A DNA stretch of 64,000 nucleotides from the IMG/VR virus record IMGVR_UViG_3300049846_001316, positions 1-64,000 of that record; one strand, written 5' to 3'. Within the stretch, counting starts at the first letter, position 1. The number at the start of each line of letters is the position of its first letter. Both the position numbers and the translations under genes were made by a program. This document shows positions 7,676 through 48,802 of the stretch, in pieces. The notes under the pieces were generated by a model. That model was not told the DNA's origin. It was given only the letters and a program-made list of their open reading frames with translations, and ran no database searches. The DNA comes from a virus.

Positions 7676-8037
7676 TCATCCTCATCTTCCTGCTGTTCCT
7701 GCTCCCGTTCGCACTCGCCAGTGCGGCGGTGATCCTCGTGTGCCTGCCCTTCGTGGCTGTGATCGGCTTCTTCGGTGGCGCGGTACGGGGCTTCCACGAG
7801 GGCAAGAACCACCACATCCAGAGTCGGGCGCGCAGAGTCGCTAGGGTGGGTCATTCGACCCAGGAGGACTCCGATGTCCCGATCCCTCAAGCGCCAAGTC
7901 CGGAAAACGACCCGGCGGACGCAACTGCTGGTTTCGTTCACCGTCGTGGTTGCCCTTCTCGGTATCAGCGTCGTTGCTCTTGCCACGACCTCCGGCACAA
8001 GTCAGAATCTCGTCGTCAAGTGCAGTCCGGGGACTGA
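7672..8037 (+). CDS. Small membrane protein (3' end doubtful)
   Basis: The first 50 residues form one long or two short membrane segments (Ile/Leu/Phe-rich residues 1-40) followed by GFHEGKNHH. GTG start with GGAGG upstream and a GTGA overlap. Past about 7840 the codon pattern deteriorates, and the frame runs 164 bases into the next gene, which is unusual in this genome. The true protein may end earlier through an unseen stop or a sequence error, or the long overlap is real. Could be a lysis accessory protein; function unknown. Confidence 0.5.
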   Translation: MIILIFLLFLLPFALASAAVILVCLPFVAVIGFFGGAVRGFHEGKNHHIQSRARRVARVGHSTQEDSDVPIPQAPSPENDPADATAGFVHRRGCPSRYQRRCSCHDLRHKSESRRQVQSGD

Positions 8038-31600: not shown

Positions 31601-34600
31601 TCGCGGCAGTCCTGCCGGGGCTGCGAGCCGATCTCGCTCGGGTCAACGCCGAGTTCCAGGCGCAGGGCTCCATCGTGGCCGCACTCGAACAGGATCTCGC
31701 TCGGGTCAACGCCGAGTACGAGCAGGCCAACGCAGTGCTCGGGCAACTCGAGAAGACAGCCTCCGCTGCCCGGACTGCCCTCGACGATGCCCAGGCCGCG
31801 CTCGAAGCCACCGCCAACACTCCCATCAAGGGCATGAAGGCGATGGACGACCAGATCTTCGCCGTCACCATGCAGCAGAAGAAGCTCCGGCTCGAAATGC
31901 TGAAGATGGAGGAGGCCGGGCAGGCGATCTCCAACACGCAGGATCGACTCGCTGCGCTCAACGGCGAGCTCGAGATGCTCAACGGCAAGAAGATCGACCT
32001 CCAGATGGCGGGCGCCGGCTCGGACGTACTCGGTCCGCTCAACGACCGGATGCGCGAGCTCGAGAATCAGCGGGGCACGCTCGAGACGACCACCAACGCC
32101 TACGAGAAGCTCCAGAAGCAGCTCGATGACCTCCAGCGGCGTGCGGAGATGCTCGACCTGGAGAAGGCGCTCAAGTTCGACCCGCTCACCAAGCAGATCG
32201 AGGACTTCACCAACAAGGCGAAGGAACTGCCGTTCGAGACGATCATGGCCAACCTCCGCAAGGAGCAGGCCGAGGTCGACCGCCTCAAGAAGGTGTGGGA
32301 GGACGCGCAGAACGCCGTCGACCGGCAGCAGCAGGTGGTGGACGCACTCAAGGAGCGTCGCGACGCCGTACAGGCGACCTACGACGCCGAGAAGGAGAAG
32401 CTCGACCAGCTCGGGGCTGCGTACGACGCCCTGGAGCAGCAGATCAACGACATCACGAGTGCGCTCTCCGGGATGGCGTCGGCGGCACAGCAGGCCGCGC
32501 AGGCGGCGAAGGAAGCAGGCGGCGGTGGCGGCGGGATGCCCGGAGGCGGCGGCTCGTTCGACATCCCCGGCGGCAAGGGAGTCAAGCTCGGCAAGGAGGG
32601 CGGCAACCTCCAGTCCATCGCGGACAAGTGGGCCAAGGAAGCGTCGAAGGCGTTCGGGGACTTCAACCCGCTCAAGGACTTGCAGCAGGGCCTCAAGGAC
32701 GCGTGGCAGAGCATCGTCGACTGGTTCTCCGACGCTTGGGACTCGATCGTCGGCGTGTTCAGCGGCAAGAGCCTCAACCTCGACTGGGCCGAGATGTTCC
32801 GTCCGATCACGGACTTCCTCAAGTCCATCGGCATCGACGTGTCCGCGGTCAGCCGCACCATCGGCAGCGAACTGTCGAAGTGGGGCGACATGTTCTCGAG
32901 CCTCGGGGACACGTTCGGCAACGTGCTCTCCGACCTCAAGCCGATCTTCGACATCATCCTCGGTGCCATCAAGTTGTTCCTGATCAACTGCCGGGTCCTG
33001 TGGGAAGCAACCTGGCCGGTGTTCAAGAACACGGTCGTCGTCGTGTGGAACCTGATCCTCGGCGTCATCCAGCACGCGCTCCAGATGATCCGTGGCGTCA
33101 TCGAGGTCTTCGACGGCCTGCTCTCGGCCGACTGGCACAAGGTGTGGGACGGCATCTCCGACATCGTTGGCGGCGCGTTCAACCTCGTGGTCGACATCGT
33201 GAAGGGCACGCTCGGACTTGCCTACGGGATCATCAAGGGGATCATCGAAGGCATCATCAACGTCTTCAAGTACCTGTACGACATCCTCGTCGGGCACTCG
33301 ATCATCCCGGATCTCGTCAACGCGATCATCGACTGGTTCTACAAGCTCGCTGCCCCGGTCGAGGCGGCGTGGAACCTCGTCAGCGACATCATCACCGGCG
33401 CGGTCGAGTGGTTCACGGGTGCGGTCGAGACGGGCGTCAGCGCCGTGGTCGGCTTCATGACTTCGCTGCCGGGCAAGATCATCAGCGCGCTGGCGGGCTT
33501 CGGCTCCCTGCTCCTCGGCCTCGGCAAGGATCTTCTCGACGGGCTCCTGAACGGCATTCGCAACGGATGGACGACCGTCTCCGGCTGGCTCGGCACGATC
33601 AACCAGCTCATCATGAACGCGGTCGGCAACGTGGGTGACGCACTCGTTTCGATCGGCCGCGACCTGATCCAGGGCTTCCTCAACGGCCTCAAGTCGATGT
33701 GGGGCTCCGTCAAGGACTGGGTGAGCTCGCACTTCGAGGATCTGCTCGGCACCATCGGTGACGTGCTCGGGATCGGCTCGCCGTCGAAGAAGACCTACGA
33801 GATGGGCAACTGGCTCATGGAGGGCCTGACCAACGGAGCGAACGACGGCTACCGCCGCTCGGGTCAGCGGTTCCGTGTGCTCGGCTCCGAAGTCATGAAC
33901 CAGTTCAACGCAGGGATGCAGAGCGGCGCGCCGGTCGTCGACAAGACGTGGAACACCTTCGTGAACGGGATGCAGGTTCCCGAGGGTTGGGCCAGTGTCA
34001 ACTCGAAGAAGTACAAGGACGGCGTGAAGGAGATGACCGATGGCATGACGCAGGCCATGAACTCGGCCTTCCCCGAGATCAACAACCTGTTCTCAAGCAT
34101 CGGTGCAGACGCCGACCTCGAGGGGCTGAAGAAGACTCTCCAGGATGCGACCACCAACGTCGGTACGTTCCAGGCGGACCTGAGTCAGATCATCACCAAC
34201 GGCAACCCGATGCTCGCCCAGCAGATCGCGGCGCTCGGCCCCGAGGCCGGGGCACAGCTCGCGGCCCAACTCGTGAGCCAGGGGCCGGACGTTCAGAAGT
34301 CGTGGGAGACGATGATCGTCACCTACAACACGGCGATCGAGAAGGCCAAGGCGGACATCCGGGCAGCCGGTCCGGCGTTCGGCTTCCTGACTTCGGCGTG
34401 GGCGACGGCGGCGAACACGCAGTTCGGCACCACGATCGACTTCGCCGGGATCACCAAGGGCGAAGTGGACGCTGCTGCCATCGCCGTGGCGGCGAACCCG
34501 CACGTCGAGCAGGAGGCGTTCAAGAAGGGCGGCGCAGTCAAGGACGCCTACAAGAGTGCGCTCACCATGACCGGCGTGACGCAGGAGCAGATCGCCGGCG

Positions 34601-35709
34601 CCCAGGCGATCATGCTGGCCGACTCCACTCTGCCTGAGGGTGCGCGCACGCTGTCCGGGAGTGCGGCCGACAAGTTCCAGCAGGCGCTGATCTTGGCGGG
34701 TGCGACCCAGACCGAAGTGTCGACGGCGGCGCTCCTGTTCACGCAGGACACGAGCATCGAGACGGCTGCCGGCGGGGCCAGTCTCCGGACCAGCCTCAAG
34801 TTCCTCGAGAACCTCGGAATCGACGGTGCCACCAAGTCGAAGATCAACGCGGCTGCCGAGGAGATCAAGAACGACCCGACGCTTCCGCACGCCGGTCTGA
34901 TCAAGGGTGGCGAAGTCACCGACGAGTACCGGAACGGCCTGCTCTGGAACGGGGTCAACGAGGACCAACTGACCCTCGCTCGGGCTATCTTTGAACACGA
35001 CAACAGCCTCCCGGCGTCCGCTCGGGTCCTTTCCGGCTCGGCCACCGATCGGTACAACGAGGCGCTGAATCTGGCGGGCGTGACGACCCTCCAGATGATC
35101 GGCGCGGCCGGGGCGATCACGAACAGCAACCTTCCCGGAGAGGCGGACACCAAGGGCCACGACACCGGGTGGGCGTTCGGCACCGGCTTCGGCCGCGGCA
35201 TCGACGACTCGGCCTACATCCCGATCATCGCTGCGCAGGCGGTGGCTGACCGTGCGATCCAGGCCGCGAAGGACAAGGCCGGGATCGAGTCGCCGTCGAA
35301 GGTCATGCGCGAGGTCGGCAAGTACATGAGCCTCGGTCTGGCGCAGGGCATCACCCGCACCACGCCGGAGGCGGAGCGTGCGGCTCGGGCGCTGGCGAAC
35401 ACGATCACGACCACGCTCAAGGACGGGCTCAAGTCGAAGATCGTTCCGAACGTGCAGGTCGACCGCGTGCAGGTTCCGAAGCTGCCGACCACCTACCGGG
35501 ACGTCGCGAAGATCCCGGCCACGATCACGCCGATCGACTCTGCCGTGTCGGGCAAGAAGCGGAACGCCGCCGGCATGGCCACCTCGAGCGGAGGCTCGGG
35601 TGGTCCGACCATCATCGAGAACCACTTCCACGGCGATCTCGTGTTCCCCGAGGTCAAGGACGGCGACGACGCCGAAGCGTTCATCAAGCACCTCGAAAGG
35701 ATCTCGTAG
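28678..35709 (+). CDS. Tail tape measure protein
   Basis: A 2343-residue protein, the largest in the window. N-terminal TP901/PhageMin-type core (about 90-340), several hydrophobic stretches (about 407-470, 660-740, 825-845) that may insert in the host membrane during DNA ejection. Then a long coiled coil (about 975-1265) and a Gly-rich joint near 1280. Two SPSK motifs (GSPSKKTYEMGNWL about 1700 and ESPSKVMREVGKYM about 2202) are typical of tape-measure C-terminal parts. No lysozyme or peptidase motif is evident. At the usual length per residue a tail of roughly 350 nm is expected (inference). Confidence 0.92.
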   Translation: MNARMNVVLRVMASNKQEIAQIEQALRRVQNVQTSAARTMAATSSKLGGAGAFGGFFAGIERGFNSLEKFGKNLQWTGRQVEFRFTLPLVAAGLAATKFALDNERAMTNVRKVYGDLNTTSAETARDMKILKGIFESLSEIFGVQQKEVIDIAAAWAAAGAQGPALARATRNTLETMVLGEMDATEATQALITVQQQYGLSTKEVRGALAALNVVENESAIRLQDLIEGFVRGGASARSAGVDVKHMAGLLAVLVPALGSGATAGNALKTIFSRLLAPTKQSADALAEIGINIDEVSWNSKNGAQRLEEVAGAFQKLTPAQRAWASAQIAGRFHVARFDQIMRDVVNTQGEYQKALRNTSDDTKNLAIYQRELGIVLSSQPKAFDILKVQLQNALAKIMVPLIPAILNVAHAFVKLVQAFTNLSPHTQQLVMGFLALLAVTGPLFAYIGTTLTLIGRLGAGFSFLGRIIFVVAGWLFGFGKTAETEAAKMASAVTAAAGQMASAAGGVGQTWTVAMGTVQSSIVSVLNQILAAVQAMALDLERIIAQMSASMVQSTQAAGSMIVEDWAMVAAAVTNIMAGLPAEWGTVNAIMAGQSAAAAGTMLATFSMSAAGYKLTFNMIRANLEALAPAAKAAFAVNAAGVVELVAESEAAMAALPVAASASVVETQAVTTGAVGAIEAWTAAVVGRINMIFSGIPIFFSMVWNRVLAFFETLMAPFAAAGSAIGGAITSAFATASEFAALVWGRVLTFIETLAGPFARLGQILGAAITSAFQIASAVASGVWGLILTAIAALQPAFSAVGGALGAGMAAAFDAAVVVFSNPVTLIAAAVAAVAVLAIVFRKQLAQAFSWIPGFFHNVWSALPKSVQGAIQAVINILERGMEIVYDLLSYLNPFAHHSPSIVEQVIAGVDLIARKYASLSGIGNDLRGAISALKEFNDAAAMQGLDSKTIELKQNRTTVSENAPQMLPDFDKLAAVLPGLRADLARVNAEFQAQGSIVAALEQDLARVNAEYEQANAVLGQLEKTASAARTALDDAQAALEATANTPIKGMKAMDDQIFAVTMQQKKLRLEMLKMEEAGQAISNTQDRLAALNGELEMLNGKKIDLQMAGAGSDVLGPLNDRMRELENQRGTLETTTNAYEKLQKQLDDLQRRAEMLDLEKALKFDPLTKQIEDFTNKAKELPFETIMANLRKEQAEVDRLKKVWEDAQNAVDRQQQVVDALKERRDAVQATYDAEKEKLDQLGAAYDALEQQINDITSALSGMASAAQQAAQAAKEAGGGGGGMPGGGGSFDIPGGKGVKLGKEGGNLQSIADKWAKEASKAFGDFNPLKDLQQGLKDAWQSIVDWFSDAWDSIVGVFSGKSLNLDWAEMFRPITDFLKSIGIDVSAVSRTIGSELSKWGDMFSSLGDTFGNVLSDLKPIFDIILGAIKLFLINCRVLWEATWPVFKNTVVVVWNLILGVIQHALQMIRGVIEVFDGLLSADWHKVWDGISDIVGGAFNLVVDIVKGTLGLAYGIIKGIIEGIINVFKYLYDILVGHSIIPDLVNAIIDWFYKLAAPVEAAWNLVSDIITGAVEWFTGAVETGVSAVVGFMTSLPGKIISALAGFGSLLLGLGKDLLDGLLNGIRNGWTTVSGWLGTINQLIMNAVGNVGDALVSIGRDLIQGFLNGLKSMWGSVKDWVSSHFEDLLGTIGDVLGIGSPSKKTYEMGNWLMEGLTNGANDGYRRSGQRFRVLGSEVMNQFNAGMQSGAPVVDKTWNTFVNGMQVPEGWASVNSKKYKDGVKEMTDGMTQAMNSAFPEINNLFSSIGADADLEGLKKTLQDATTNVGTFQADLSQIITNGNPMLAQQIAALGPEAGAQLAAQLVSQGPDVQKSWETMIVTYNTAIEKAKADIRAAGPAFGFLTSAWATAANTQFGTTIDFAGITKGEVDAAAIAVAANPHVEQEAFKKGGAVKDAYKSALTMTGVTQEQIAGAQAIMLADSTLPEGARTLSGSAADKFQQALILAGATQTEVSTAALLFTQDTSIETAAGGASLRTSLKFLENLGIDGATKSKINAAAEEIKNDPTLPHAGLIKGGEVTDEYRNGLLWNGVNEDQLTLARAIFEHDNSLPASARVLSGSATDRYNEALNLAGVTTLQMIGAAGAITNSNLPGEADTKGHDTGWAFGTGFGRGIDDSAYIPIIAAQAVADRAIQAAKDKAGIESPSKVMREVGKYMSLGLAQGITRTTPEAERAARALANTITTTLKDGLKSKIVPNVQVDRVQVPKLPTTYRDVAKIPATITPIDSAVSGKKRNAAGMATSSGGSGGPTIIENHFHGDLVFPEVKDGDDAEAFIKHLERIS

Positions 35710-35712
35710 GTC

Positions 35713-38553
35713 ATGGCGATCCGCACCGGCCGGTATGGCATCAACTACACGCAGGCATCCGGTGCTCTCACGGATGTCGACGTCAACCCGGCCGACTCGA
35801 ACATGCAGATCGCGCTCGGCATGGACGGCGCGCTCGGCTACAAGGGTGCCGCACCGACGATCACGACGACCGGCATCGCCAGCTTCGCTGCGCTCGCTCG
35901 CAAGATCCAGATTGTCGACTGGGGTTCAGGTGCCGGGTACATCCTCTACGCCGATGGAGTCGTCAAGGGCATCAACGGCAAGAGCAACCCGTCCGGGACC
36001 CCGCTCACGATGGCGGCGAGCGAGGTCTGCGTCGACTTCGCGATGGACCCCACCGGGAACGGACAGGGTTACGTCCTGACCAACCGCGGCCGAGTGCGTG
36101 CCATCGGCGGCATCGCCGCTCCGACGATCCCCGACTTCGGGCTCACCCCGTACATCGGTCGAGCCATCTGGGTCAACTGGGCGGGCGGAGCTCCGTACCG
36201 GTACGTCGTGCTCGACGGCTTCGGTGCGCTGCACTTCTCGAACCCCGGCGGGCAGAAGGGCGCGACGTTCTACTCGTCGTACTGGGGTCCGGGCTCCAAG
36301 GCCGGTGGCACGAACGGGTGGGACATCGCCCGCGACGTGATCGTCTCCGACGTGGCGGGCTACTGGGAGGGCTACGTTCTCGACGGCTACGGCGGGCTGA
36401 GTCCGTTCTGGACGAGCGGCGAAGGCAAGCCGCCGAGCATCTCGACCGCAGGCGCGTACGTGACCTCGGACATCTTCCGGGTTGTACGTGAGACGTTCGA
36501 CTTCAGTCGGGTCCTCGTCGCCACCAGCGATGCTCGCTACTGGGACTACGACCGGGGCTCACCGGTCTACGAGATCACAAGCGTCACCGCTCCGACCGGA
36601 GTCCAGACCACGCGTCGCCCCACGGTCACCTGGAAGCCCGCACTCGTCGCGGGAACCGCGTCCCCTCCCGATACCGTGTTCTTCCGCGTGTTCGTGGACA
36701 CCGTGTACAACGCGGGCCAGTTCGATCCGAACGACGCGCTCAACGCGCAGTACGACAGCGGTCCGCTCTCCAAGACGCAGACACTCGGCGCCAACGCGTC
36801 GATGCAGTTGCCGGTCGACATCCCGAACGGCACGTGGAAGGTGTACGTCGCCGTCGCCAAGAGGAACACGGACGGCACCTACGAGTCGTCCGACTGGGTG
36901 GCATCACCTGAATGGTCGATTGCGGGGACGCTGCCGGTGCCGACCAACGTGACTCCCGCCGCGGGTGCGCTCGTGAACACCGACCTGCCGGGACTCGGCA
37001 TGACGCTCACCGCGGACCCGCTCGGCTCGTCGGTCGCCGGACAGTGGCAGATCGCACAGGACGCTGCCTTCACGGCGGGCCTCAAGGAGATCTCGGACCA
37101 GCTCGGGGACTTCAAGAAGAGCGGCCTCACCACGGAGCCAATCCCGCTTCCGCTCGCCCTGTCGCAGGGCACGTGGTTCATCCGCGGTCGAGAGGTCAAT
37201 CTGCTGCTCGACTCGTCCGAATGGACGACCCCGCAGAGCTTTGTCGTCTCGCACCCGCCGACGACGAACGGTCACTCGCCCTCGGGCGGACAGGCGATCC
37301 CGTACGAAGCCGGCGGGAACGTCTCGTTCCACTGGACGTTCTCGGACTCGAGTCCGGTCGACTACCAGACGGCGTACCAGATCGAGGTGCTCGAGAACGA
37401 CACCAACAACTTCGTCGCGACCTCCGGCATCGTGGACAGCACGGTCGGAGTGGGCACGGTGGTGATCCCGCCGACCGCGGCGAACATCGAGCTCAAGTGG
37501 CGCGTCCGGGTCTTCGACAGCGACAACGTGTTCGGTGACTTCTCCGACTGGAACGTGTTCAAGGTCGTCGAGTCTGCGAACCTCACGATCACGAGCCCGA
37601 GCGGTGGAGTCGACAACCCGCAGCCGACGATCACCTGGACGTACTCCGCCAGCGGACGCGTGCAGGTCGCCTTCCGGGTGGTGATCACCCGAGCGAACGA
37701 CGGCGTGGTCGTGTTCGACTCCACGCAGCTCGCCGGGTCCTCGTCGAGCTACCAACTCCCGGACCCGATCCTCGACAACAACACGCTCTACACGCTCTCG
37801 GTGACGGTCTACGACAACGGTGGACTTGCGTCGACTCAGATTGAGCAGTTCACGACTGCGTGGATTCCGCCGACGCCGGGCGGCAGCGTGACCTTCGACT
37901 CTTCGCACTACGAAGAGGAGGGGTACCTGATCATCAACTGGGACGACGCGGCGACCGATGGTGACTTCCGGGCGTGGCGGATCTACCGGGGCAACGCCGT
38001 GCAGGTGTACTCCGGCACGTCCGTGCTCGTGGATGAGATCGACAACGGTCCCTTCAACGACTACTCGGCGCCGGCGAACGATGAGGTGTTCTACGCGGTC
38101 GTGCAGGTCGCGAGTCGCTTCGGGGTTGACGTCGAGTCGGACAAGGTGTTCTACAACGTCACCCTCTCCGGGACGCACTACTGGCTCGTGTCGAACGAGC
38201 TTCCGAGTCTGTCGCTCCGACTGGCTCACGTCGTGTCGGACTCGTTCACCAACGAGCTCGAGCGCGAGAGCTACGTCATCAAGGGCCGGGGTCGCAAGGT
38301 CGACCAGGGAGTCCGGCTCGGCAAGAACGGAACCCTCACGTGCGAGTTCAACGACATCCTCGATGGACCCACGGCGCGCCAGCAGCGGCAGAAGCTCGAG
38401 CTGCTCCAAGAGCAAGCGACCGACATCTACTTGCGCAACCCGTTTGGCGATGTGTGGAAGGTGTCTCCCACTAACATCCAGGTCGAGCGCGTCGCGGGTG
38501 TGGGCGTCAAAGAGTACGCCAAGGTCACGATTCCGTACGAAGAGGTGGTCTGA
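35713..38553 (+). CDS. Distal tail / tail-tip protein with DGGV-like repeats and Ig-like domains
   Basis: A 946-residue protein. N-terminal region with four repeats around residues 75, 119, 163 and 220 (YILYADGVVKGING, YVLTNRGRVRAIGG, YVVLDGFGALHF, YVLDGYGGLSPF). These form a propeller-like set also present in the endolysin. Residues about 290-830 look like a chain of fibronectin/Ig-type beta domains. The C-terminal 115 residues resemble a distal-tail ring domain (LTCEFNDILDG, IYLRNPFGDVWKVSP). It follows the tape measure, as distal tail proteins do. Probably ring plus host-surface contacts. Confidence 0.7.
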   Translation: MAIRTGRYGINYTQASGALTDVDVNPADSNMQIALGMDGALGYKGAAPTITTTGIASFAALARKIQIVDWGSGAGYILYADGVVKGINGKSNPSGTPLTMAASEVCVDFAMDPTGNGQGYVLTNRGRVRAIGGIAAPTIPDFGLTPYIGRAIWVNWAGGAPYRYVVLDGFGALHFSNPGGQKGATFYSSYWGPGSKAGGTNGWDIARDVIVSDVAGYWEGYVLDGYGGLSPFWTSGEGKPPSISTAGAYVTSDIFRVVRETFDFSRVLVATSDARYWDYDRGSPVYEITSVTAPTGVQTTRRPTVTWKPALVAGTASPPDTVFFRVFVDTVYNAGQFDPNDALNAQYDSGPLSKTQTLGANASMQLPVDIPNGTWKVYVAVAKRNTDGTYESSDWVASPEWSIAGTLPVPTNVTPAAGALVNTDLPGLGMTLTADPLGSSVAGQWQIAQDAAFTAGLKEISDQLGDFKKSGLTTEPIPLPLALSQGTWFIRGREVNLLLDSSEWTTPQSFVVSHPPTTNGHSPSGGQAIPYEAGGNVSFHWTFSDSSPVDYQTAYQIEVLENDTNNFVATSGIVDSTVGVGTVVIPPTAANIELKWRVRVFDSDNVFGDFSDWNVFKVVESANLTITSPSGGVDNPQPTITWTYSASGRVQVAFRVVITRANDGVVVFDSTQLAGSSSSYQLPDPILDNNTLYTLSVTVYDNGGLASTQIEQFTTAWIPPTPGGSVTFDSSHYEEEGYLIINWDDAATDGDFRAWRIYRGNAVQVYSGTSVLVDEIDNGPFNDYSAPANDEVFYAVVQVASRFGVDVESDKVFYNVTLSGTHYWLVSNELPSLSLRLAHVVSDSFTNELERESYVIKGRGRKVDQGVRLGKNGTLTCEFNDILDGPTARQQRQKLELLQEQATDIYLRNPFGDVWKVSPTNIQVERVAGVGVKEYAKVTIPYEEVV

Positions 38554-38556
38554 GCA

Positions 38557-39147
38557 ATGACATTCTGGGGCGACTTCGAGCTCGAGTCCTTCCCGGTGAG
38601 CGGTGATCTTGATGGCCTCACACTCGAGGAGGCATTCCACCGCAGCCTCCACACCAACATCGGTGAGTTCCTCACTGAGATGCAGTTCGCCCTGATGGTG
38701 CCGCGTTCGTGGACGCCGGTGCTGCACACGGACGGATCTCCGGACTTCCAGCGCGGCACGGGCGGCGGTGGAGTGCGAGGCCAGTCCTGGGGGATCTACT
38801 TCCAGATGGGCAAGTGGGTGTGGGGACAGGGCACCATCCGTCTCGGAGACACGGGATGGAACAAGGGCAACGGCAACTACTACATGACGCTGCCGGTGCC
38901 GGGAGTGATGCCGCCCACGGAGATGCCCCGCATCGGAGAAGCCACCATCGGGTCCGGTGCGAACTTCAAGCACTACAACTGGGGCCTGCACATGGGCCGA
39001 GTGAACGCTCCTGACGAGACGCAATACTGCTGCTTCACCCCGGACGACGGGGTGTTCATGTGGGCGACGGGCGGGCTCTACATCCCGGACTTCACTTCCG
39101 CGGGCGGCGACATCCACACTCGCTTCGGGCCGTACCTGGCGGCGTAG
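38557..39147 (+). CDS. Minor tail protein
   Basis: A 196-residue beta-rich protein with many Trp/Tyr/Gly (GIYFQMGKWVWGQGTIRLGD). No recognised family. It sits within the tail-tip operon, three bases after the previous stop, so a tail-tip role is likely. The final QYCCF gives it two adjacent Cys. Confidence 0.65.
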   Translation: MTFWGDFELESFPVSGDLDGLTLEEAFHRSLHTNIGEFLTEMQFALMVPRSWTPVLHTDGSPDFQRGTGGGGVRGQSWGIYFQMGKWVWGQGTIRLGDTGWNKGNGNYYMTLPVPGVMPPTEMPRIGEATIGSGANFKHYNWGLHMGRVNAPDETQYCCFTPDDGVFMWATGGLYIPDFTSAGGDIHTRFGPYLAA

Positions 39148-39150
39148 CCC

Positions 39151-41661
39151 ATGGCCACCGACTTCGATGCCCCCATCGACTTCGACGCCGCTGTCGACTT
39201 CGATGGTGGCGGCGGGTCCACCCCCGGCGGTCCCTCCGAGCTGACCCCTGCGCAGTTCCGGGCAGCAGCAGCGGAGGCGATCAACGCTGCGGTCACCACG
39301 GTCCTGTTCCGAGTCGACATCTACGAGCGTGACGCCACGACGATCTGGATGCGGGACGCGCCCCTCATCGGCGGCAACATCAACATCTCGAACAGCCGGG
39401 ACGAGCGCCGCACTCTCGACCTCAAGCTCGACAACTACGACGGGCGCCTCAAGCACTACCCCGGAGGCTTCTGGTACGACAAGGTGATCAAGCCCTACCG
39501 CGGCGTCCGCACGCCCGTGGGCGACTACCTGTTGCAGCAGGGCGAGTTCATCCTCGACTCGATCAGCCGCGACGACTTCCCGAACCACGTCACGCTTGCC
39601 GGCCGGGACTACACCGCGCACCTTCTGTCGAGTCAGTTCGAGCGGCCAGTGTCGTTCGCGCAGGGCCAGTCGCTCGACCAGATCGTCCGGGCCATCGCTC
39701 TCAATGCGGGCATCCGCAAGCTCAACATCCCGCCGACGAACGTGCTCGCCTACAAGGTGTTCTTCTTCGACGCCGGGACGACGCGGTGGGAGGCCATCAA
39801 GCAGATCACCGAGCCCCACGGGTATCAGGTGTTCTTCGACCGCTACGGGTACCTGACGATGGCTCCGTTCCCGGACCCGGCCACGGGTGCCGAGGAGTGG
39901 ACGTTCCGCGGCTACGCGTCCGCCAGCGGCGACCCAAACCTCGCGAGCTACTCCAAGGCGGTGTCCACCGCACGCCTGCGCAACCACCTGATCGTGAAGG
40001 GCGACTCCTCGACGAACGGCAACGTGTTCATCGAGCTCAAGGTCCCGGAGTCGAGCCCTATCGCCATCAGCAAGATCGGTGACCGCATCGAGGTCTACCA
40101 GTCCGGCTTTTTCAAGGACAACGCCGAGGCGCTCGCGTTCGGCAACAAGTACCTGCCGACGCTCGCCATGGAGGACTACGAGATCCAGACCGAGAGCCCG
40201 GTGATCCCGTGGCTCGACGCCAACGTGATCGTGCGCTTCGAGGACCCGGACCCGGACCCGATCGACCCGGCTCGGTTCTTGCTCACCGACATCGACATCC
40301 CCATGGAGCTCGGAGTCATGCGCGCCACGTCGAAGCGCATCACTCTGATCAAGGACTACCGGGACAACACCAACGTCGGCACCCGGATCGCTGTCCCGAA
40401 CCTCAGTGGCAAGACTCTGACTGAGGCCAACGCGGCGCTGCTCGCCTCGGGCCTGCGCTCGACTGTCTCGTACGTGGTGAGCACCGCGGCGAACGTGGGC
40501 AAGGTGCTGGGGCAGAACCCCGGTCCGGGCGAGCTGGTCATGCGGGACTCGTCGGTGTCGCTGACGGTCGGCAAGACCGGCACGGCCGCACAGGTGAAGC
40601 TCGGGGAGTACGCCGGCGCGAGCTACTGGCCGTCCGACGCGAACATCTCGCAGAACAAGGCGCTCGGGGCGAAGTGGTGCCGGTTCGGTCCCGAGTGGCA
40701 GTGGTACGACACGGACGGCAACTTCGACGACACTGAGATCCGGGACGGTCTGGCTCGCCTGCACGCTGCCGGCCAGCGGGCGATCATCGTCGCGTTCGGA
40801 CTTCCCGACTACGTGCACCCCGGAGCAAGCTCACTCCCGCACCCAAACCACGTGCTCCCGGCCACCGACGCCGAGTGCCTCCTCTACGTCGGATGGCTCG
40901 TCAAGGTCGCAAAGTTGATGGACCCGGCAAAAGATATTCTCGAAATCTGGAATGAGCCCAACATTCAAGATTTCAACAACATCTCGGGCACCGACATCAA
41001 CGACATTCTCAACGCGGCGAAGTATTGGGGACGTTCGGTCGCGTGGGCAGCCCAGGCGATTGCCGGCGAGGTTCCCGGACTCCGAGTCATCGCGGGCTCC
41101 GTTGCGTCTCGATCGAACTACTACGACACCGGTGGCGAATACGAGTGGTCGATGCCCCGGTTCATGCGGCACGCGGTCGAGCAGAACCCGGAGCTGATCA
41201 CCCTCGCGAACTCCGGCGCTCTGTGGGGCTTCGGATCTCACCCGTACTGCCGTGACGCCTCCACCAACAATGGCGACCCGCGTGCAGAAGTCGGATGGAA
41301 CGGGCACGTGCAGAACCAGGAGACGTGGAGCTACCTCAAGTCGGTCGGCGTGGTGAACCCTCGCATGATCGCGACCGAGTGGGGTGAGGCGTCGTACAAC
41401 CTCGGTGACGGGGCGTGGTCGGAGGCGTGGCAGCAGTCCCACTTCCTGCTCGAGAAGGACGTCATGGGCTTCCGTCGGGCGCTCGGGCACTACCACTACC
41501 CGTTCATGACGTTCAACAACCAGGACTGGAAGTCCTACGCCGAGAACGGCTTCATGGACGCCTACATGGGCATGTACAAGCTCGACGGGAGTGCCAAGCC
41601 GAAGAAGAACGACTACGTTGCGTGGCTCGCTACCAACGTCGATCAGGTGGACTACCTGTGA
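39151..41661 (+). CDS. Tail hub protein fused to PASTA domain and glycoside hydrolase
   Basis: An 836-residue protein with three parts. Residues 1-405 resemble a baseplate hub (RRTLDLKLDNYDGRL, RDYTAHLLSSQF, AGIRKLNIPP). Residues about 410-476 form a PASTA domain (AVPNLSGKTLTEANAALLASG, VLGQNPGPGE), which binds peptidoglycan. Residues about 483-836 are a clan GH-A barrel with acid/base E602 (EIWNEPN) and nucleophile candidate E743 (ATEWGEASY). The fusion would bind the wall and open a local hole during infection. It is related in motifs to the free hydrolase at 6590. Confidence 0.85.
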   Translation: MATDFDAPIDFDAAVDFDGGGGSTPGGPSELTPAQFRAAAAEAINAAVTTVLFRVDIYERDATTIWMRDAPLIGGNINISNSRDERRTLDLKLDNYDGRLKHYPGGFWYDKVIKPYRGVRTPVGDYLLQQGEFILDSISRDDFPNHVTLAGRDYTAHLLSSQFERPVSFAQGQSLDQIVRAIALNAGIRKLNIPPTNVLAYKVFFFDAGTTRWEAIKQITEPHGYQVFFDRYGYLTMAPFPDPATGAEEWTFRGYASASGDPNLASYSKAVSTARLRNHLIVKGDSSTNGNVFIELKVPESSPIAISKIGDRIEVYQSGFFKDNAEALAFGNKYLPTLAMEDYEIQTESPVIPWLDANVIVRFEDPDPDPIDPARFLLTDIDIPMELGVMRATSKRITLIKDYRDNTNVGTRIAVPNLSGKTLTEANAALLASGLRSTVSYVVSTAANVGKVLGQNPGPGELVMRDSSVSLTVGKTGTAAQVKLGEYAGASYWPSDANISQNKALGAKWCRFGPEWQWYDTDGNFDDTEIRDGLARLHAAGQRAIIVAFGLPDYVHPGASSLPHPNHVLPATDAECLLYVGWLVKVAKLMDPAKDILEIWNEPNIQDFNNISGTDINDILNAAKYWGRSVAWAAQAIAGEVPGLRVIAGSVASRSNYYDTGGEYEWSMPRFMRHAVEQNPELITLANSGALWGFGSHPYCRDASTNNGDPRAEVGWNGHVQNQETWSYLKSVGVVNPRMIATEWGEASYNLGDGAWSEAWQQSHFLLEKDVMGFRRALGHYHYPFMTFNNQDWKSYAENGFMDAYMGMYKLDGSAKPKKNDYVAWLATNVDQVDYL

Positions 41662-43463
41662 GCGGAACGAAGACGTGGACTGACCCCGCAATCGCGGCAC
41701 GACTCCGTGATGTGGTCAAGCGGATCGCCAGAGAGGAAGTCCGGGCGCTGGTGCCTCGGCCGGTCCACGGGCAGATCAGCGCGATCGACCTCATCAACGA
41801 GGTGGCGGTGGTCGACCTCGCGGACGGCTCGCAGATCGAGGTGGGTGTCCCCGCAGACACGACTCTGACGGTCGGTGTGACCGTTCGGGTGTCCGGAACC
41901 CCCGGTGACCGCTACATCGAGGGCGCGGGCTTCGTGGGCTCTTACACGGGGCCTCCGGGCAACCCTCACGGCTCAGGGTGGGACCCGACCGAAGTGGTGC
42001 CGCATTCGATGCGGTTCCGGATCGCGACCACCAACCTGCTGGGACCGTCGACCGCCGACGAGCTGGCCGTCGCGCACTTGATCTTGAACGGCACCGAGGA
42101 TGCTGCCTTCATCAACTACGTCCTCGCACTCGGGATGTTCGACAACCCGATCGACACCATCTGGCTCGACATGGGCTCCGGCTTCTACCGCTTCAAGTCG
42201 CCCATCGACATCCCCGGTGGCGGCGCGCTGATCGTGAAGGCTGCGATGCCCACCCACCAGTTCGAGGGCTCCGGCCACACGACTCTGTGGGTGGGTCAGG
42301 GCTTCCCGGACGGTGAACCGATCTTCCGTACGGACGGACCGAGCACGAACCTGAACGTCGATGGCGTCAACATCACCGTCGAGCCCGGTTCCCCCCTGCT
42401 CGACGCCAAGGAGTACGAGCTCACCAACTGCAACCTCGTGACACTCGACGACGTGAGCGCGGGGCAGGGCGGGGTGTGCAAGCGCATCTGGAAGCCGGAC
42501 TACACCACGGGTCAGTCCATCTTCATCGCTCGACGGAGCTTCCTGCGAGGCGACTCCACACTGGCGCTGATCCGAGCCGGGTACGGGACCGACGCCACCG
42601 CTTCGATGGCGGACAAGGTGCTGGTGCAGGACTCCACCGTCGCCAACGAAAGCGGACCGGCCGTCCGTATCGCCTGCGAGAACTTCGACATCAGCCGAAG
42701 CGTCGTCAAGTCGGTCGGTGCCGCTGCCGTTGACATCGACATCCCTGCCTCCAGTTCGGCTCCGTCCTCGTACGTGCGGGGACTCAGCCGCAACCTGATC
42801 GAGACACACCCGACCACGGAGGGGTCGATCACGCCGACCGCAGCTCCGTTCGTGGTGCTCAACAACGCTCGCGGTGTTCTCGTGAAGGACAACCTCGGCG
42901 TCTTCGTCAACTACGACTCCGGGACCGCGGCGCACTACCCCACGGACGGCAACCTCGTCGTCTTGTCCGGGCACAGCGTCGGCAATGACTTCACCGGGAA
43001 CTCGTGGACGAGCCTCTCCGGCGACGACTGGTCGACCTCCGGCAACGGCACCTACGCCCCCGGCAAGATCAGCGTTGGCCCCGCGTGCTCCGGGAACCGG
43101 TTCAGCGACTCTCACCAACTGCTCATCGACGAGGGGCAGAACAACGAGTACCCGATCGAATCGTACGTGTTCTCGAAGTCCGGGACGTTCGATCCTGGTC
43201 CCACCGGTCGCTTCCTCATCCGCAAGCGCGGGTACTTGTACGAAGCGGTCGGCACACTCACCGAAGCCGGAACCGCCGACACGCAGATCGACGTGATCCA
43301 CGAGAACTTCACCATCGGGACGCTGATCATTCCCGCCGGCGACCTCGAGGCAGTTCTTGCACTCGATCTCACGCAGGTCAACGTGGGTGACAGTCTCTAC
43401 ATCGACGTCGTGTCCGTCAACACGGGTGACCGCGACCTCGTGGTCGGAGTACGCTCCCGCTGA
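41658..43463 (+). CDS. Tail protein with beta-helix (tail fibre or spike)
   Basis: A 601-residue protein. The first about 100 residues start with a helix (DPAIAARLRDVVKRIAREEV) followed by an OB-like beta part (GQISAIDLINEVAVVDLADG). From about 125 on, repeated short strands and Asn/Gly/Ser turns look like a right-handed beta-helix. A small beta cap closes the C-terminus. Likely a receptor-binding or glycan-degrading fibre; no catalytic residues recognised. GTG start in a GTGA overlap. Confidence 0.65.
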   Translation: MSGTKTWTDPAIAARLRDVVKRIAREEVRALVPRPVHGQISAIDLINEVAVVDLADGSQIEVGVPADTTLTVGVTVRVSGTPGDRYIEGAGFVGSYTGPPGNPHGSGWDPTEVVPHSMRFRIATTNLLGPSTADELAVAHLILNGTEDAAFINYVLALGMFDNPIDTIWLDMGSGFYRFKSPIDIPGGGALIVKAAMPTHQFEGSGHTTLWVGQGFPDGEPIFRTDGPSTNLNVDGVNITVEPGSPLLDAKEYELTNCNLVTLDDVSAGQGGVCKRIWKPDYTTGQSIFIARRSFLRGDSTLALIRAGYGTDATASMADKVLVQDSTVANESGPAVRIACENFDISRSVVKSVGAAAVDIDIPASSSAPSSYVRGLSRNLIETHPTTEGSITPTAAPFVVLNNARGVLVKDNLGVFVNYDSGTAAHYPTDGNLVVLSGHSVGNDFTGNSWTSLSGDDWSTSGNGTYAPGKISVGPACSGNRFSDSHQLLIDEGQNNEYPIESYVFSKSGTFDPGPTGRFLIRKRGYLYEAVGTLTEAGTADTQIDVIHENFTIGTLIIPAGDLEAVLALDLTQVNVGDSLYIDVVSVNTGDRDLVVGVRSR

Positions 43464-46400
43464 TGGGCGAGATCTTCGTAGTCCCCACGTCGATCAACGA
43501 CCCGACTGACCCGACCGGCCTCGGCATGGTCGCAGGCAACGGCGGATGGATCTTCGGTGGCGAGCCGAAGTACTTCCCCGGCCACGCGAACTACGTGGTG
43601 TCGGAAGTGCCGCTGCCCGACGACACCGCCAACAACACCCGAGTCGGCTCGTACACCACGAAGCCGGTGGGTGGCTCGGCGCTCACGTGGACGTTCAACT
43701 ACGGAGTCCTGAACCTTCCCTCGAGCGCGCCGCCGACTCTGCTCACGCCGACCATCGTGGTCACCTGGGACTTCGGCGACGGCAGCCCCCCCGAGACGGG
43801 CCTCTCGGTCACGCACACGTTTCCGGAGGACAACTACTACATCGTCACGATGTACGTGGAGCACGTCGGCAAGGCGGACTCCAACCCGCGCCTCGCGTCG
43901 AAGCCGACCCACATGATCTTCAAGTCGGCTATCACCTACGCCATCACCGCGGACACCGGCATCACTGTGCTCGATCAGTCGTTCACGAAGATGGTGCTCC
44001 CGAACATCTCGGACGCATTCCTCTGGTGGTTCTGTTACGGCTGGGACCCGGCGAACCCGCTCGTCCAGCACAACATCGACGGCTTCATCAGCTCGCGCTC
44101 GGGGGTGAGCCCGTCCGACCGGAACACGGTTCGACTCCGAGGGCCGGGGTACTTCTACGCATTCGAGTACGCCCTCCGGTGGGGGTTGGCGGGTCCGTAC
44201 GCGTTCACCGACGAGTACGGAAACACGATCTCCGGCATGACCGTCACGAACGGCACCACCGTGGCACCCGACTGGGTGGAACCGTTCTGCGTGAAGAACC
44301 TTGACTTCGATTTCTACGGGTCGATGGTGGTGCAACAGGACAGCCGGATCAAAGGCGCTCCCCGCATCCCTCTGCGCGGCCAGTTCACCCGGTTCGGGAA
44401 TCTGATCGACCAGATCGACCTCAAGACTCGTACAGGTGATGCGGCGATCCTTCTTCCTGCCTGGGTGGATCGAAAGCTCTCGGCCACCATCGCGGACCGG
44501 CCGATCATCGGCAGCACCGGCACACCGATCAAGGGCGACTTCACCAAGGGCGACCGCATCGTTCGGAACGTCGACACGCCGCTGCGCGCAGGCTGGGTGA
44601 ACACCCTCATCGCCGTCGCTTCGGCGTTCGGACTTCCGGACGGCACCTACGTCTCCGAGATCGGACCCAACGTCGGCCTCGGACTCGGCTCGAGCGACAT
44701 CCGCCTGAGTCAGGCATACCAGGGTGTCACGACGACTCAGTTGACGGCGATGATCGCTCGACTCCCGTACCAGGACGATCTCACCAAGCGCAACAACACC
44801 GTTCTGATCCACAACAACTTCACGACGCCGGAGTCTTACGCCCGCAACAACATCACGCTGGTCAGCACTCCGGGCAGCAACGTCCTCACCAACGTGAGTG
44901 AGCCGGTCCACGACGGCTGGCTTGAGCTCGACATCGCCGGCGGCGGACTTGGTGGTCTGAGCACCACGACGACACTCGCCTGCTCGGACGTGCAGACTTC
45001 GCTCCCCTCGACCATCACGGCGGCGGGCGGTGACTTCAGCAACGCCGGCATCCCGAGTGCCGGCCGCATCAAGATCGCGACGACCTACCTCGATCAGAAC
45101 GGCAACACGCAGAAGTCGTTCGCCATCATCGCCTACACCGGCAAGTCGACCTCACCGAAGCAGTTCACCGGCTGCACGCTCGTGTGGGGGCGGGGTGCGT
45201 TCGTCTCCGGCGCGGCGCTCGACTTCATCGTGCACATCCTCGAGATCGACGCATCGAACCCGGCGAACCAGAAGCTCACGGTCAGCAGCCTCCCGGTGGC
45301 GACGACGACCGCGAGTCGCAACGCCACGATCCCGTGGACCGCGTTCGCCACCGATCAGCTCCTGATCGAGCGGCCGATCAACGGACTCGACCCGATCACC
45401 ACCAAGACGTTCGTCATGGGCGGCTCTCGCATCACCGACGTGGACGCAGCGACCCGGCTCGCTACCGTCGCCCCCGACGACGACTACATGACCGTCTCCG
45501 GAACGTGGCAGTTGGCGGTCGGCACGTCGACGTGGATCACCGACATCTCAGTTCCGGTGGACTCGAACTGGCTCGGCAAGACCGTGACCAACCCCAACGG
45601 TGGAGTCACGGCGAACACCGTCGTGCTTGAGGTCGACACGGTGCTGAACCGCATCCGAGTCCAGAAGCAGCCGAACACGAACGTGGTCGTCAAGAACTTC
45701 CGCATCGGATTTTCGTACGGCTCGTTCCTCAGTGCGGTCACCCGGTGGGGCGGCGCGACCAGCCCTGCGATTCGAGAGCGGTTCCAACTGCCGGGCACCG
45801 CGGTGATCTCTTCCGCAACGGTCGGAGCGGTCAGCGACGCTACCAAGCAGATCACATTGAAGTCGCCCAAGGTGGCTGCGCTCACGTCACCGTTCCGGTA
45901 CGCGGGCTTCACCATGCAGGTCACCGCAGGCTCCCGCAAAGTGAAAGTGCTGTCGCTGGCGGACAGCCGGCCCCAGGGCGCCATGACCTCGAAGTGGATT
46001 GGACTTCGACTTGAATGCATCACAGCAGGGCTGATCCCCGCCTCCCCAACTGACACCCGCGTAGTGGCGGTGGGTCCCGATGTCGGGCTCGGGCTCGCCA
46101 CGGACGAGTTTCTGATCGACAATGACCCCCTAGCGGCCGGGACCTCGCAGGGGTACGTACGTGTCGACTTGAAGCAAGCGGTCGACGTGATCCTCGACGC
46201 GGCCTTCGTGCAGAAGGTCGGCGGCGTGCAGTTGCTCACGTTGTCCTCGCCGGGAACCGCACCGCCCGCGCTCGGGTACGACCCGTCCACCGGGCGCTAC
46301 GACTACGACTACGCGGGCAAGAAGCTGCTCGGAATGAAGGCCACGGCGAACATCGCTTCGGGCGACCCGACCGTCCGCAAGACCCTCACCACGTGGCGCA

Positions 46401-48802
46401 CCCGCATCGGGGCCAACGTCAACGCCACCTTCCCCATCAGCGCATCATGGGCGGGCAAGTACATCACCGACCCGGCCGGGAAGCTCGCCCCCCTCACCAA
46501 GATTGTCTCGGTCAACGTGAGCGCCGGAACGGTGCTGCTCGACCGCGAGCCGCTCGTCAGCGGCGTCATTGGATCGTTGAGCATCTTCGGGCAGCCGGGG
46601 ACCCTCACCACCGAATACTGCGACTTCTACGACAGCCTCAGTGGGATCGCCGGTCCGAACCCGGACGCTGGTGGCCTCATGGGTGACAACATCAACTTCA
46701 CCGACGCCACCTACCTCGACTGGGACTCCTGGCACGGCGTCGACTTCGGAGCCTGCAAGAACATCACGCTTCGGAACATGTCGCTCTGGTACCTGTGGGG
46801 AGACTTCTTCTTCTTCAAGCCGTACGACCCCTACGGTCAGTCGCAGCACCAGAGCATGAAGGGTTCGCAGGCGCAGCCGGACACCATCAACATCCATCAG
46901 GTGTACGGCCGCGGGTGCGGCCGTCACGCGTTTACGTGGCAGGCCGGAGTCCGCCTCGACGTGGACAGCGGCGACTACTCCGGCATCGCGCACTGGTTCA
47001 TCGACAACGAGCCACTCCAGAACGCTCGGATGCTCAAGTGCCGCTGGGCGAACTGCGCGGCCGGTGGTTCCGGGAGCCCGTACCACTACCTCTCGAAGGG
47101 TCCCGGCTCGGTCGTCAACGGCGACGTGCCCCGGCTCATCACTGGAGTCCAGATCACGCAGGGTTCGCCCATCGCCAAGATCGTCACCGGCGAAGGAACC
47201 GGTTGGGAGAAGGATCTCAACGGCACGTTCATCTACGGCAACTGGTTCGACGGTTCGTACCAGGGCTGCCAGCTCTCGCTTCCGAGCGACACCGGACTCG
47301 CCAACTGGACGTACCTGTTGCAGTGGCGCAACTTCGATGAGATCGAGATGTCGCAGAACGCTGACTGGGGGGCCGCACCGGGGACCACCAAGACCGTCTC
47401 CATGCTCATGAAGGGCACCGGTCAGATCCACGATCTGATGTTCGAGTACAACCGGCTCACCCAGGGTCAGTTCATCATCGACATCGACTCGCAGACGACC
47501 AAGCCGACGCAGACTTCATTCTCGAGGATCAACTTCCGGGTCACCGCGACCGCCGGCACTCCGTACGTGCAGATCACGAGCATGGACGCACGAGCGGACG
47601 GCACGAGCTACGAGCCTGATTCGACTTGGATCAATCAGGTGTTCCGTCCCTCGGTCGCCAACTACTTCCCGTCGCAGCCTGCTCCGAAGATCCTGGAGAT
47701 CGGTCCGAGCCTCACGGACCCGAACCTGCCGACCAAGTTCCACATGAAGCTCGACCGCAACACGCTCAAGAGTGTGACCGGGATGTTGTGCTCGATCGCC
47801 CCGCTGTTGGAGTGGCACCGCGGGTTCACGTTCCAGTACAACTGCCAAAGTGCGACGGGCTCCTACGACGGCGACACCGGAGCTCCCGGCCTGCCGCTGC
47901 TGCGCCTCGGGCGGGGGTGGACTGATGTACTTGTACGTGGGAACATCATCCCGTTCGTCGAGCGCACCGACCCGGCGACTCGGAGCTACCTGCTCGGCTG
48001 GCTGAACAACTCTCGTCAGGCACGGATGTTCACCCGCGACGGCGCGCCGCCCAACCTGCCGGCCGGAACTTCGTGGCAGGAGTACGACAACTACCTGCCG
48101 GGCGCGGCCGACAACGACCTCACGCCGAGCGGCACGATCACCGCCGCAATCACGTTCGATCAGAACCCGCACTCGAACCTGACTCCGGTCACCTACACCG
48201 TGACGCTCACCAGCTCCACCGGCGACCCGGTGGACGGGTATGTCTCGATCCTCGAAACGACGAACGCCTCGGACACCACACCGCCCGTGCTCAACAACGC
48301 TGGACAGGTCAAGTTGGTCGGCGGCGTGGCGACGTTCACGACGGCCGCACCGAAGCCTGACGGCACGTACTACGTCAGAGTCCGCTACAACGGCGGCTGC
48401 TCCCCGCAGGATCAGCGGTACCAGTCGCCCACTGCAACGACCCTCACCGTGGGCACGGTGGCGACCAAAGAGGACACGATCACGACGGCGACGGCGAGCC
48501 CCAACCCGCCGATCGACGGCCAGCCCGCGAGCGTCGGCGCGACGGTCACCGGGATCACGAGTCAGCCCACGGGTACCGTGCGCCTGAGCGGAACCGCGGT
48601 CGGGACTCCGGTCGACCTTGTGCTCGTCGGCGGACAGGTGTCACTCAACCGGACCTTCGACCCAGGCACATACACACTGCTCGCGGAGTACCTGGGGGAC
48701 AATCTCCACAACCCGAGCTCGAGCACCATCACGTTCACCGTGGAGGAAGTGATCGTCGTGCAGAACGGCGAGGAGTGGACTGCCGGCAGGGTCGGGTCTT
48801 GA
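43463..48802 (+). CDS. Large tail spike/fibre with PKD and Ig-like domains
   Basis: A 1779-residue protein. A PKD domain (about residues 96-145, TWDFGDGSPPETG and THTFPEDNYYIVTMYV) comes early, then a long repetitive beta region with several SDIRL/DEFLI-type segments. A beta-helix-like middle (about 1050-1300) has NITLRNMSLWYLWG. Two Ig-like domains end the protein (about 1555-1670 and 1680-1770). Probably the main adhesion device. TGATG overlap with the gene before. Catalytic sites were not identified. Confidence 0.72.
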   Translation: MGEIFVVPTSINDPTDPTGLGMVAGNGGWIFGGEPKYFPGHANYVVSEVPLPDDTANNTRVGSYTTKPVGGSALTWTFNYGVLNLPSSAPPTLLTPTIVVTWDFGDGSPPETGLSVTHTFPEDNYYIVTMYVEHVGKADSNPRLASKPTHMIFKSAITYAITADTGITVLDQSFTKMVLPNISDAFLWWFCYGWDPANPLVQHNIDGFISSRSGVSPSDRNTVRLRGPGYFYAFEYALRWGLAGPYAFTDEYGNTISGMTVTNGTTVAPDWVEPFCVKNLDFDFYGSMVVQQDSRIKGAPRIPLRGQFTRFGNLIDQIDLKTRTGDAAILLPAWVDRKLSATIADRPIIGSTGTPIKGDFTKGDRIVRNVDTPLRAGWVNTLIAVASAFGLPDGTYVSEIGPNVGLGLGSSDIRLSQAYQGVTTTQLTAMIARLPYQDDLTKRNNTVLIHNNFTTPESYARNNITLVSTPGSNVLTNVSEPVHDGWLELDIAGGGLGGLSTTTTLACSDVQTSLPSTITAAGGDFSNAGIPSAGRIKIATTYLDQNGNTQKSFAIIAYTGKSTSPKQFTGCTLVWGRGAFVSGAALDFIVHILEIDASNPANQKLTVSSLPVATTTASRNATIPWTAFATDQLLIERPINGLDPITTKTFVMGGSRITDVDAATRLATVAPDDDYMTVSGTWQLAVGTSTWITDISVPVDSNWLGKTVTNPNGGVTANTVVLEVDTVLNRIRVQKQPNTNVVVKNFRIGFSYGSFLSAVTRWGGATSPAIRERFQLPGTAVISSATVGAVSDATKQITLKSPKVAALTSPFRYAGFTMQVTAGSRKVKVLSLADSRPQGAMTSKWIGLRLECITAGLIPASPTDTRVVAVGPDVGLGLATDEFLIDNDPLAAGTSQGYVRVDLKQAVDVILDAAFVQKVGGVQLLTLSSPGTAPPALGYDPSTGRYDYDYAGKKLLGMKATANIASGDPTVRKTLTTWRTRIGANVNATFPISASWAGKYITDPAGKLAPLTKIVSVNVSAGTVLLDREPLVSGVIGSLSIFGQPGTLTTEYCDFYDSLSGIAGPNPDAGGLMGDNINFTDATYLDWDSWHGVDFGACKNITLRNMSLWYLWGDFFFFKPYDPYGQSQHQSMKGSQAQPDTINIHQVYGRGCGRHAFTWQAGVRLDVDSGDYSGIAHWFIDNEPLQNARMLKCRWANCAAGGSGSPYHYLSKGPGSVVNGDVPRLITGVQITQGSPIAKIVTGEGTGWEKDLNGTFIYGNWFDGSYQGCQLSLPSDTGLANWTYLLQWRNFDEIEMSQNADWGAAPGTTKTVSMLMKGTGQIHDLMFEYNRLTQGQFIIDIDSQTTKPTQTSFSRINFRVTATAGTPYVQITSMDARADGTSYEPDSTWINQVFRPSVANYFPSQPAPKILEIGPSLTDPNLPTKFHMKLDRNTLKSVTGMLCSIAPLLEWHRGFTFQYNCQSATGSYDGDTGAPGLPLLRLGRGWTDVLVRGNIIPFVERTDPATRSYLLGWLNNSRQARMFTRDGAPPNLPAGTSWQEYDNYLPGAADNDLTPSGTITAAITFDQNPHSNLTPVTYTVTLTSSTGDPVDGYVSILETTNASDTTPPVLNNAGQVKLVGGVATFTTAAPKPDGTYYVRVRYNGGCSPQDQRYQSPTATTLTVGTVATKEDTITTATASPNPPIDGQPASVGATVTGITSQPTGTVRLSGTAVGTPVDLVLVGGQVSLNRTFDPGTYTLLAEYLGDNLHNPSSSTITFTVEEVIVVQNGEEWTAGRVGS

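Follow-up and report, generated by a model that had tools for sequence, protein, structure and literature searches.

What might a phage tail hub do with a PASTA domain of the host-kinase kind and a sugar-cleaving barrel at its C-terminus? The question is raised by one gene in a 64,000-nucleotide stretch of viral DNA, positions 1 to 64,000 of IMG/VR record IMGVR_UViG_3300049846_001316 (hereafter the window), which forms part of a virus record of 78,169 bases. The gene lies at 39151-41661 on the plus strand, where an open reading frame (ORF) starting with ATG runs uninterrupted for 836 amino acids. On the evidence of the ORF itself, Pfam and PHROG matches, and the guanine and cytosine (GC) content at third codon positions, it is a tail hub followed by a PASTA domain and a glycosidase domain of glycoside hydrolase (GH) clan GH-A. 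A preliminary description of this DNA had already placed all three in one polypeptide, and that arrangement is borne out by PHROG and fold matches for the hub, by PF03793 for the PASTA domain, and by a profile built from other proteins only for the barrel. The protein appears to be a Tal-type hub extended by a C-terminal fusion that is so far unique, and we consider it reasonably probable that it stands at the tail tip and acts as a depolymerase, cutting a polysaccharide of the host surface with its glycosidase.

The hub, of the kind typified by gp27, gp44 and VgrG and by the N-terminal domain of Tal proteins, occupies residues 1-403 (39151-40359, plus strand). Residues 127-403 match PHROG 1887 (tail protein; whole-protein expect value (E) 4.7e-77) and residues 146-237 match PHROG 177 (baseplate hub; 5.4e-7); a gp44-like second domain in Pfam falls below its cut-off and is a hint only. 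An AlphaFold model built with 24 sequences has block means of 76-97 in the predicted local distance difference test (pLDDT) over residues 31-400, and Foldseek matches it to contractile-injection hubs, Mu gp44, T4 gp27, VgrG and the tail-associated lysin of NF5. Superposition with VIA-align gives Z 21.7 to a Neisseria tail protein (root-mean-square deviation (rmsd) 3.5, 279 residues), Z 20.3 to Mu gp44 (1wru; rmsd 3.9 over 299), Z 17.5 to T4 gp27 and Z 17.0 to NF5 Tal. The gene order runs from the tape measure gene (28678) through a minor tail protein gene (35713) and a gene of 196 codons to the hub (39151), and both the fold and this place, after a tape measure gene and what is presumably a distal tail gene, are those of a Tal/gp27-like hub. 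Hub relatives occur at E 1e-5 in 126 of 50,697 phage records, the hosts of which are Gordonia (105), Tsukamurella (6), Rhodococcus (6), Streptomyces (6), Geobacillus (2) and Nocardia (1); to judge from these relatives, the phage is probably a siphophage of actinobacteria. When the full 836-residue protein served as query against the same records, 124 matched, none covering 80% of it in one place, and among genome contigs 19 stretches were returned as possible hub relatives, none of which was confirmed.

What sets the protein apart is what follows the hub. In a survey of 49 hub ORFs other than that of the window, drawn from 44 contigs or records distinct by name (some may be the same phage), 47 end between 3 residues before and 17 residues after the window's hub end, and the other two (L060 and L063) run off the ends of their contigs; past this point the window's ORF alone continues, by 433 residues. 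Neither the PASTA model nor the GH-A profile found a match in the 44 other hub records, some of which are fragments, so that absence there is no proof. The hubs of Tsukamurella and Gordonia phages such as TIN4, GTE7 and Hollow illustrate the point: they share a similar gene order and are about 34-36% identical to the window's protein over the hub part, yet the relatives examined stop at the hub end. Additions of another kind do occur in the family. Six of seven aligned relatives carry a large insert at the position of the window's residues ~119-125, flavodoxin-like by eye only, and three of ten relatives tested contain carbohydrate-type inserts, LamG/ConA-like in one (L004) and CBM_4_9 in two (L051, L056). 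The inserts in these relatives therefore suggest that the hub family takes up carbohydrate-type modules, while the C-terminal place and the PASTA plus GH-A kind of addition have been seen only here so far. The insert site near residue 120 varies among L004, L051, L056 and other loci.

A fused reading frame may of course be an artefact of assembly. Third-position GC is 0.92 in the hub, 0.91 in the PASTA domain and 0.85 in the glycosidase part, against 0.85-0.89 in the surrounding tail genes, and given this uniformity nothing suggests a chimeric frame; an assembly chimera at this ORF is unsupported.

The PslG-like (beta/alpha)8 glycosidase domain of clan GH-A spans residues 485-836 (40603-41658, plus strand) and was recognized from profiles with their controls, a structural model and fold searches. 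It has no Pfam match above cut-off and none in NCBIfam, and phmmer found nothing of weight among solved structures (best E 0.23, a hyaluronidase). A motif scan for EIWNEPN over viral contigs returned 34 loci, and a profile that excluded the window's own domain, made from 29 viral EIWNEPN proteins (a hand count, in which two pairs seem identical and one member is a probable chance match), aligns with residues 4-340 of the 358-residue GH piece at 76 bits. Part of this score stems from the motif that recruited the set, which is why the masking control matters: with 19 residues around the motif masked the profile still gives 40 bits, against at most 2.0 for 200 shuffles, and the reversed sequence is not among the eight rows listed in that control. 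In an alignment of 21 rows every row keeps EIWNEPN, H219, Y221 and E265 (numbered within the domain), and likewise an Arg, and the Thr preceding the second Glu is nearly invariant. All rows thus hold Glu602 of WNEPN (40954-40956), the predicted acid/base, and Glu743 of TEWG (41377-41379), the predicted nucleophile; His697 of SHPY (41239-41241), likewise on the plus strand and likewise invariant, lies at the end of strand 6 in the model.

Profile A1, which consists of 21 rows with the window's domain included, points from these residues to a characterized enzyme. Among the best 60 of its 380 matches to solved structures, PslG of Pseudomonas aeruginosa (PDB 5bx9, 9g17) comes first at 1.6e-44, followed by GH39 beta-xylosidases. 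The WNEPN and TEWG motifs of PslG fall in the same profile columns as those of E602 and E743, and their glutamates are presumably E165 and E276 of PslG. An excerpt of PMC7237758 names E165 and E276 as the key catalytic residues of PslG, describes the enzyme as disrupting the exopolysaccharide matrix, and gives it a carbohydrate-binding domain of its own. PslG is a bacterial enzyme with no tail hub, and at ~16% identity it differs considerably from the window's domain. Searches for nearer kin returned few candidates: a single-sequence search for related loci gave 2 stretches, none confirmed, and with alignment A1 relatives were found in 2 of 34 viral stretches and in at least 7 of 594 genome stretches. 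Pfam detects no PASTA domain in four of those seven genome ORFs, one of the four being cut by a contig end. In the set of genomes used for the PASTA and GH searches, 197 genomes of the class of a Rhodococcus rhodnii genome (L094, the same as G044), the domain has no match at 1e-6, in a search that had no positive control. PHROGs give no tail label to any of seven viral proteins tested (six with GH-A, plus the multi-PASTA protein L096 described below), and recurrence of GH-A in tail proteins is therefore not claimed.

The window holds a second, stand-alone GH-A-like gene at 6557-7531 (plus strand; 324 amino acids), which matches profile A1 at 2.1e-21, shows NEG and TEFG glutamates by eye, and has no Pfam or PHROG match. 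A recent duplication from this gene was considered as a source of the fused domain and rejected, since the best BLASTP value between the two is E 0.091 despite the profile match.

The hallmark of clan GH-A is an acid/base Glu after strand 4, in NEP, and a nucleophile Glu after strand 7. The preliminary description had pointed to two well-placed Glu residues, and the AlphaFold model of the glycosidase region agrees. DSSP assignments, read by eye, show eight barrel strands, and E602 (model residue 199) follows strand 4 (193-196), with E743 (340) following strand 7 (336-338), so that in this model both the barrel and the places of the two glutamates along it are as the clan prescribes. Blocks round the barrel core have pLDDT 82-98 and loops lie below 50. 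Foldseek ranks PslG first (3.9e-13, ~16% identity; best 50 of 485 matches at E 0.001), and VIA-align superposes it over 305 residues with Z 25.2 and rmsd 3.7. In the viral structure library the top places go to phage proteins annotated as "glycoside hydrolase family 5" and "glycosyl hydrolase" (2.9e-11 and 2.0e-10), among them A0A6J5PWD3 and A0A2K9VCN9 of Lactobacillus phage Bacchae, which are again ~16% identical.

Between hub and enzyme lies a single PASTA domain, residues 414-475 (40390-40575, plus strand), the only one in the protein. PF03793 matches it over profile positions 2-64 of 64, with 43.4 bits in the whole protein and 49.1 bits for the stretch alone against a cut-off of 23.2. The domain searches that had been called for thus succeeded directly for PASTA, and for GH-A by way of the profile, the GH39 family model of Pfam falling short of its cut-off. 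The NCBIfam PASTA-kinase model gives the stretch 30.6 bits, far below its whole-protein cut-off of 450, and the solved structures closest to it by sequence are PASTA chains of PknB, weakly (E 0.022). The 197 genomes contain no PASTA match at 1e-8; at E 0.001 there are matches in 130 of them, the best at 6.2e-8 with 43% identity, and identity reaches at most 45% among the matches listed. From six best-match loci three PASTA proteins were scanned, and all three proved to be Ser/Thr kinases with a confirmed kinase domain, in keeping with the earlier remark that PASTA domains are normally found in host kinases. By sequence, the window's domain is most like the repeats of such actinobacterial kinases (PknB type), which differ in having three or four PASTA domains in those scanned, whereas the window's protein has one and no kinase part.

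PASTA domains were also sought in viruses. Searched with tblastn, the phage records gave six with a match, none significant (best E 0.9). A pattern search of viral contigs returned two matches, one of them a true multi-PASTA protein, the strictness of the pattern making this no census. That protein (L096:4769-7078) is 770 amino acids long, with five PASTA stretches (2.5e-44) and no PHROG match, and on its sequence it indicates that PASTA domains do occur elsewhere in viral contigs. Among the papers listed on PASTA together with phage tails, endolysins or glycosidases, none reports in its title or abstract opening a phage tail protein with a PASTA domain, and PASTA is absent from the main text of PMC12363180.

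Under the reading that we favor, a Tal-type hub would have acquired two modules at its C-terminus, a PASTA domain and a glycosidase of clan GH-A. The protein would be suspended beneath the tail tip in three copies, and on contact with the host, presumably an actinobacterium, the glycosidase would cleave a beta-linked polysaccharide on or around it, such as capsule, exopolysaccharide or a wall-attached glycan. Cleavage would follow the usual two-Glu retaining mechanism, in which E602 would be the acid/base and E743 the nucleophile, and the PASTA domain may either dock the protein close to the wall or act as a spacer that separates the enzyme from the hub. The principle of a hub with a C-terminal enzyme is already known. 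In excerpts of PMC6115969 and PMC9692632, the Tal proteins of siphophages that infect Gram-positive hosts begin with a gp27-like domain, followed in many by a C-terminal peptidoglycan hydrolase. Tal of TP901-1, Tuc2009 and NF5 resembles the window's protein in that the gp27-like hub is encoded after a tape measure and a distal-tail-type gene and precedes C-terminal modules, often an enzyme. It is the kind of enzyme that differs, the Tal proteins often bearing a recognized peptidoglycan hydrolase such as M23 where the window's protein has one PASTA domain and then a GH-A barrel.

Several observations weigh against this reading. The glycosidase domain has no relative at E 0.01 by tblastn in the 50,697 phage records and is 14-22% identical to the 20 viral proteins aligned with it, so the substrate proposed is a guess. 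Confidence in its model is moderate (mean pLDDT 67.1, predicted template modeling score 0.72, 135 of 433 residues below 50), and in VIA-align PslG is tied with GH1 beta-glucosidases at Z 24.6-25.8 among the matches listed. Membership in GH39 (PF01229) was rejected at 11.3 bits and E 0.15, against a cut-off of 26 and with 19 residues aligned, and the domain is accordingly filed as clan GH-A and PslG-like. The PASTA stretch, for which the family fold would be a helix packed against a sheet of three strands, was modeled with low confidence in both AlphaFold models (block-mean pLDDT 31-67), from alignments that contain no PASTA homologues, and the domain therefore rests on sequence only. In one of these alignments (A2), the N-termini of some glycosidase rows lie on PASTA columns, which may have impaired the PASTA portion of the first model; alignment A4, a mixed one of full-length sequences, was misaligned and left out of the folding. 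Lastly, the presumed class of phage is derived from hub relatives at 32-47% identity.

The alternative that survives best is also the one first proposed, in which the protein is a self-targeting wall drill. The PASTA domain would bind peptidoglycan or nascent wall, and the barrel would cut a wall glycan, either the peptidoglycan backbone or one resembling arabinogalactan, for passage of the tail. The kinship of the PASTA domain to actinobacterial kinase repeats favors it, as do the specific muropeptides bound by the extracytoplasmic PASTA-bearing domain of Mycobacterium tuberculosis PknB (excerpt of PMC3145798), the peptidoglycan hydrolase activity at the C-terminus of many Tal proteins (excerpt of PMC6115969) and two weak matches among the viral structures, to entries named lysozyme (ranks 31 and 43, E 8.5e-3 and 1.8e-2). 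The enzyme matches do not bear it out: they comprise PslG, beta-xylosidases, glucosidases, a mannosidase and an endoglucanase, and no peptidoglycan hydrolase is among the matches listed in the solved-structure profile, Foldseek and VIA-align searches, nor does Pfam or NCBIfam give a peptidoglycan hydrolase match. Moreover, the PASTA domain of M. tuberculosis PonA2, a lone one, showed no significant interaction with two muropeptides in titrations (excerpt of PMC6151718). Muropeptide binding thus varies among PASTA domains, as far as these excerpts go, and a single PASTA domain is no proof of wall binding. Apart from the PASTA domain, little speaks for peptidoglycan as the substrate, and we regard this first proposal as unlikely.

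Somewhat more doubtful is the idea that the barrel, while keeping its catalytic residues, serves at the tip mainly as a receptor head that binds carbohydrate, the PASTA domain being a spacer. The carbohydrate-binding-type inserts in other hub relatives speak for it, and so do lactococcal Tal proteins, which bear carbohydrate-binding modules and receptor-binding domains (excerpt of PMC9692632); retention of the entire signature (Arg, NEP, His, Tyr and the second Glu throughout the 21 rows, Thr nearly so) argues for an active enzyme instead. More speculative still is a version of wall targeting in which a PASTA domain captured from a host kinase guides the glycosidase onto actinobacterial wall glycan, so that the hub would read the host's own muropeptide signal and act as a wall-penetrating tool. 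Finally, it is very improbable that the PASTA and glycosidase part has no role in the virion, being cleaved off or being a recent fusion freed as a soluble enzyme: Tal2009 and TP901-1 Tal are processed to free C-terminal hydrolase domains in some particles (excerpt of PMC6115969) and the fusion is found in this record only, but the frame is intact, has no stop and keeps a hub-like third-position GC.

The surrounding genes are consistent with a tail region. The tape measure protein upstream (28678-35709, plus strand, as are all genes in this paragraph) matches PHROG 5448 at 8.5e-246 over its first 1276 amino acids and PhageMin_Tail in Pfam. It is followed by a minor tail protein with Rha78A-like immunoglobulin domains (35713-38553; PHROG 5287 at 2.7e-94, and Pfam), which has relatives in 49 other loci among the 85 compared and takes the place of the distal tail protein; from its position it would be the Dit. 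The gene between it and the hub (38557-39147; 196 amino acids in the ORF list) has no Pfam or PHROG match and no relative among ORFs of at least 80 amino acids in the 84 other loci. After the hub, the loci comparison places the next tail-region gene at 41652-43463, the product of which resembles, over its first ~100 residues, the ORF directly after the hub in L004 (the same as L080), L077 and L078. The tail-region gene at 43463-48802 encodes 1779 residues in which Pfam matches PKD and Big_3_5; its product, possibly a receptor-binding or depolymerase protein, has no relative in the loci compared. Consensus scans of 38500-42000 found no promoter-like site and one terminator-like site, against 1.8 expected. 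Farther upstream, 7775-9028 encodes a protein of 417 amino acids that looks secreted by eye, with a hydrophobic stretch near its N-terminus and a linker rich in Ser and Thr; it has one relative, in L014, and no Pfam or PHROG match.

Tail hubs in phages of Gram-positive hosts help to determine whether the virus gets through the surface layers of the cell. To our knowledge, few virion enzymes have been described for actinobacterial surface glycans, and the protein described here is a candidate depolymerase for them. It places a PslG-like glycosidase where Tal proteins often hold a peptidoglycan hydrolase, and adds to it a PASTA domain of the host-kinase kind. Such a hub would show that its family acquires sugar-directed modules C-terminally as well as within the hub.

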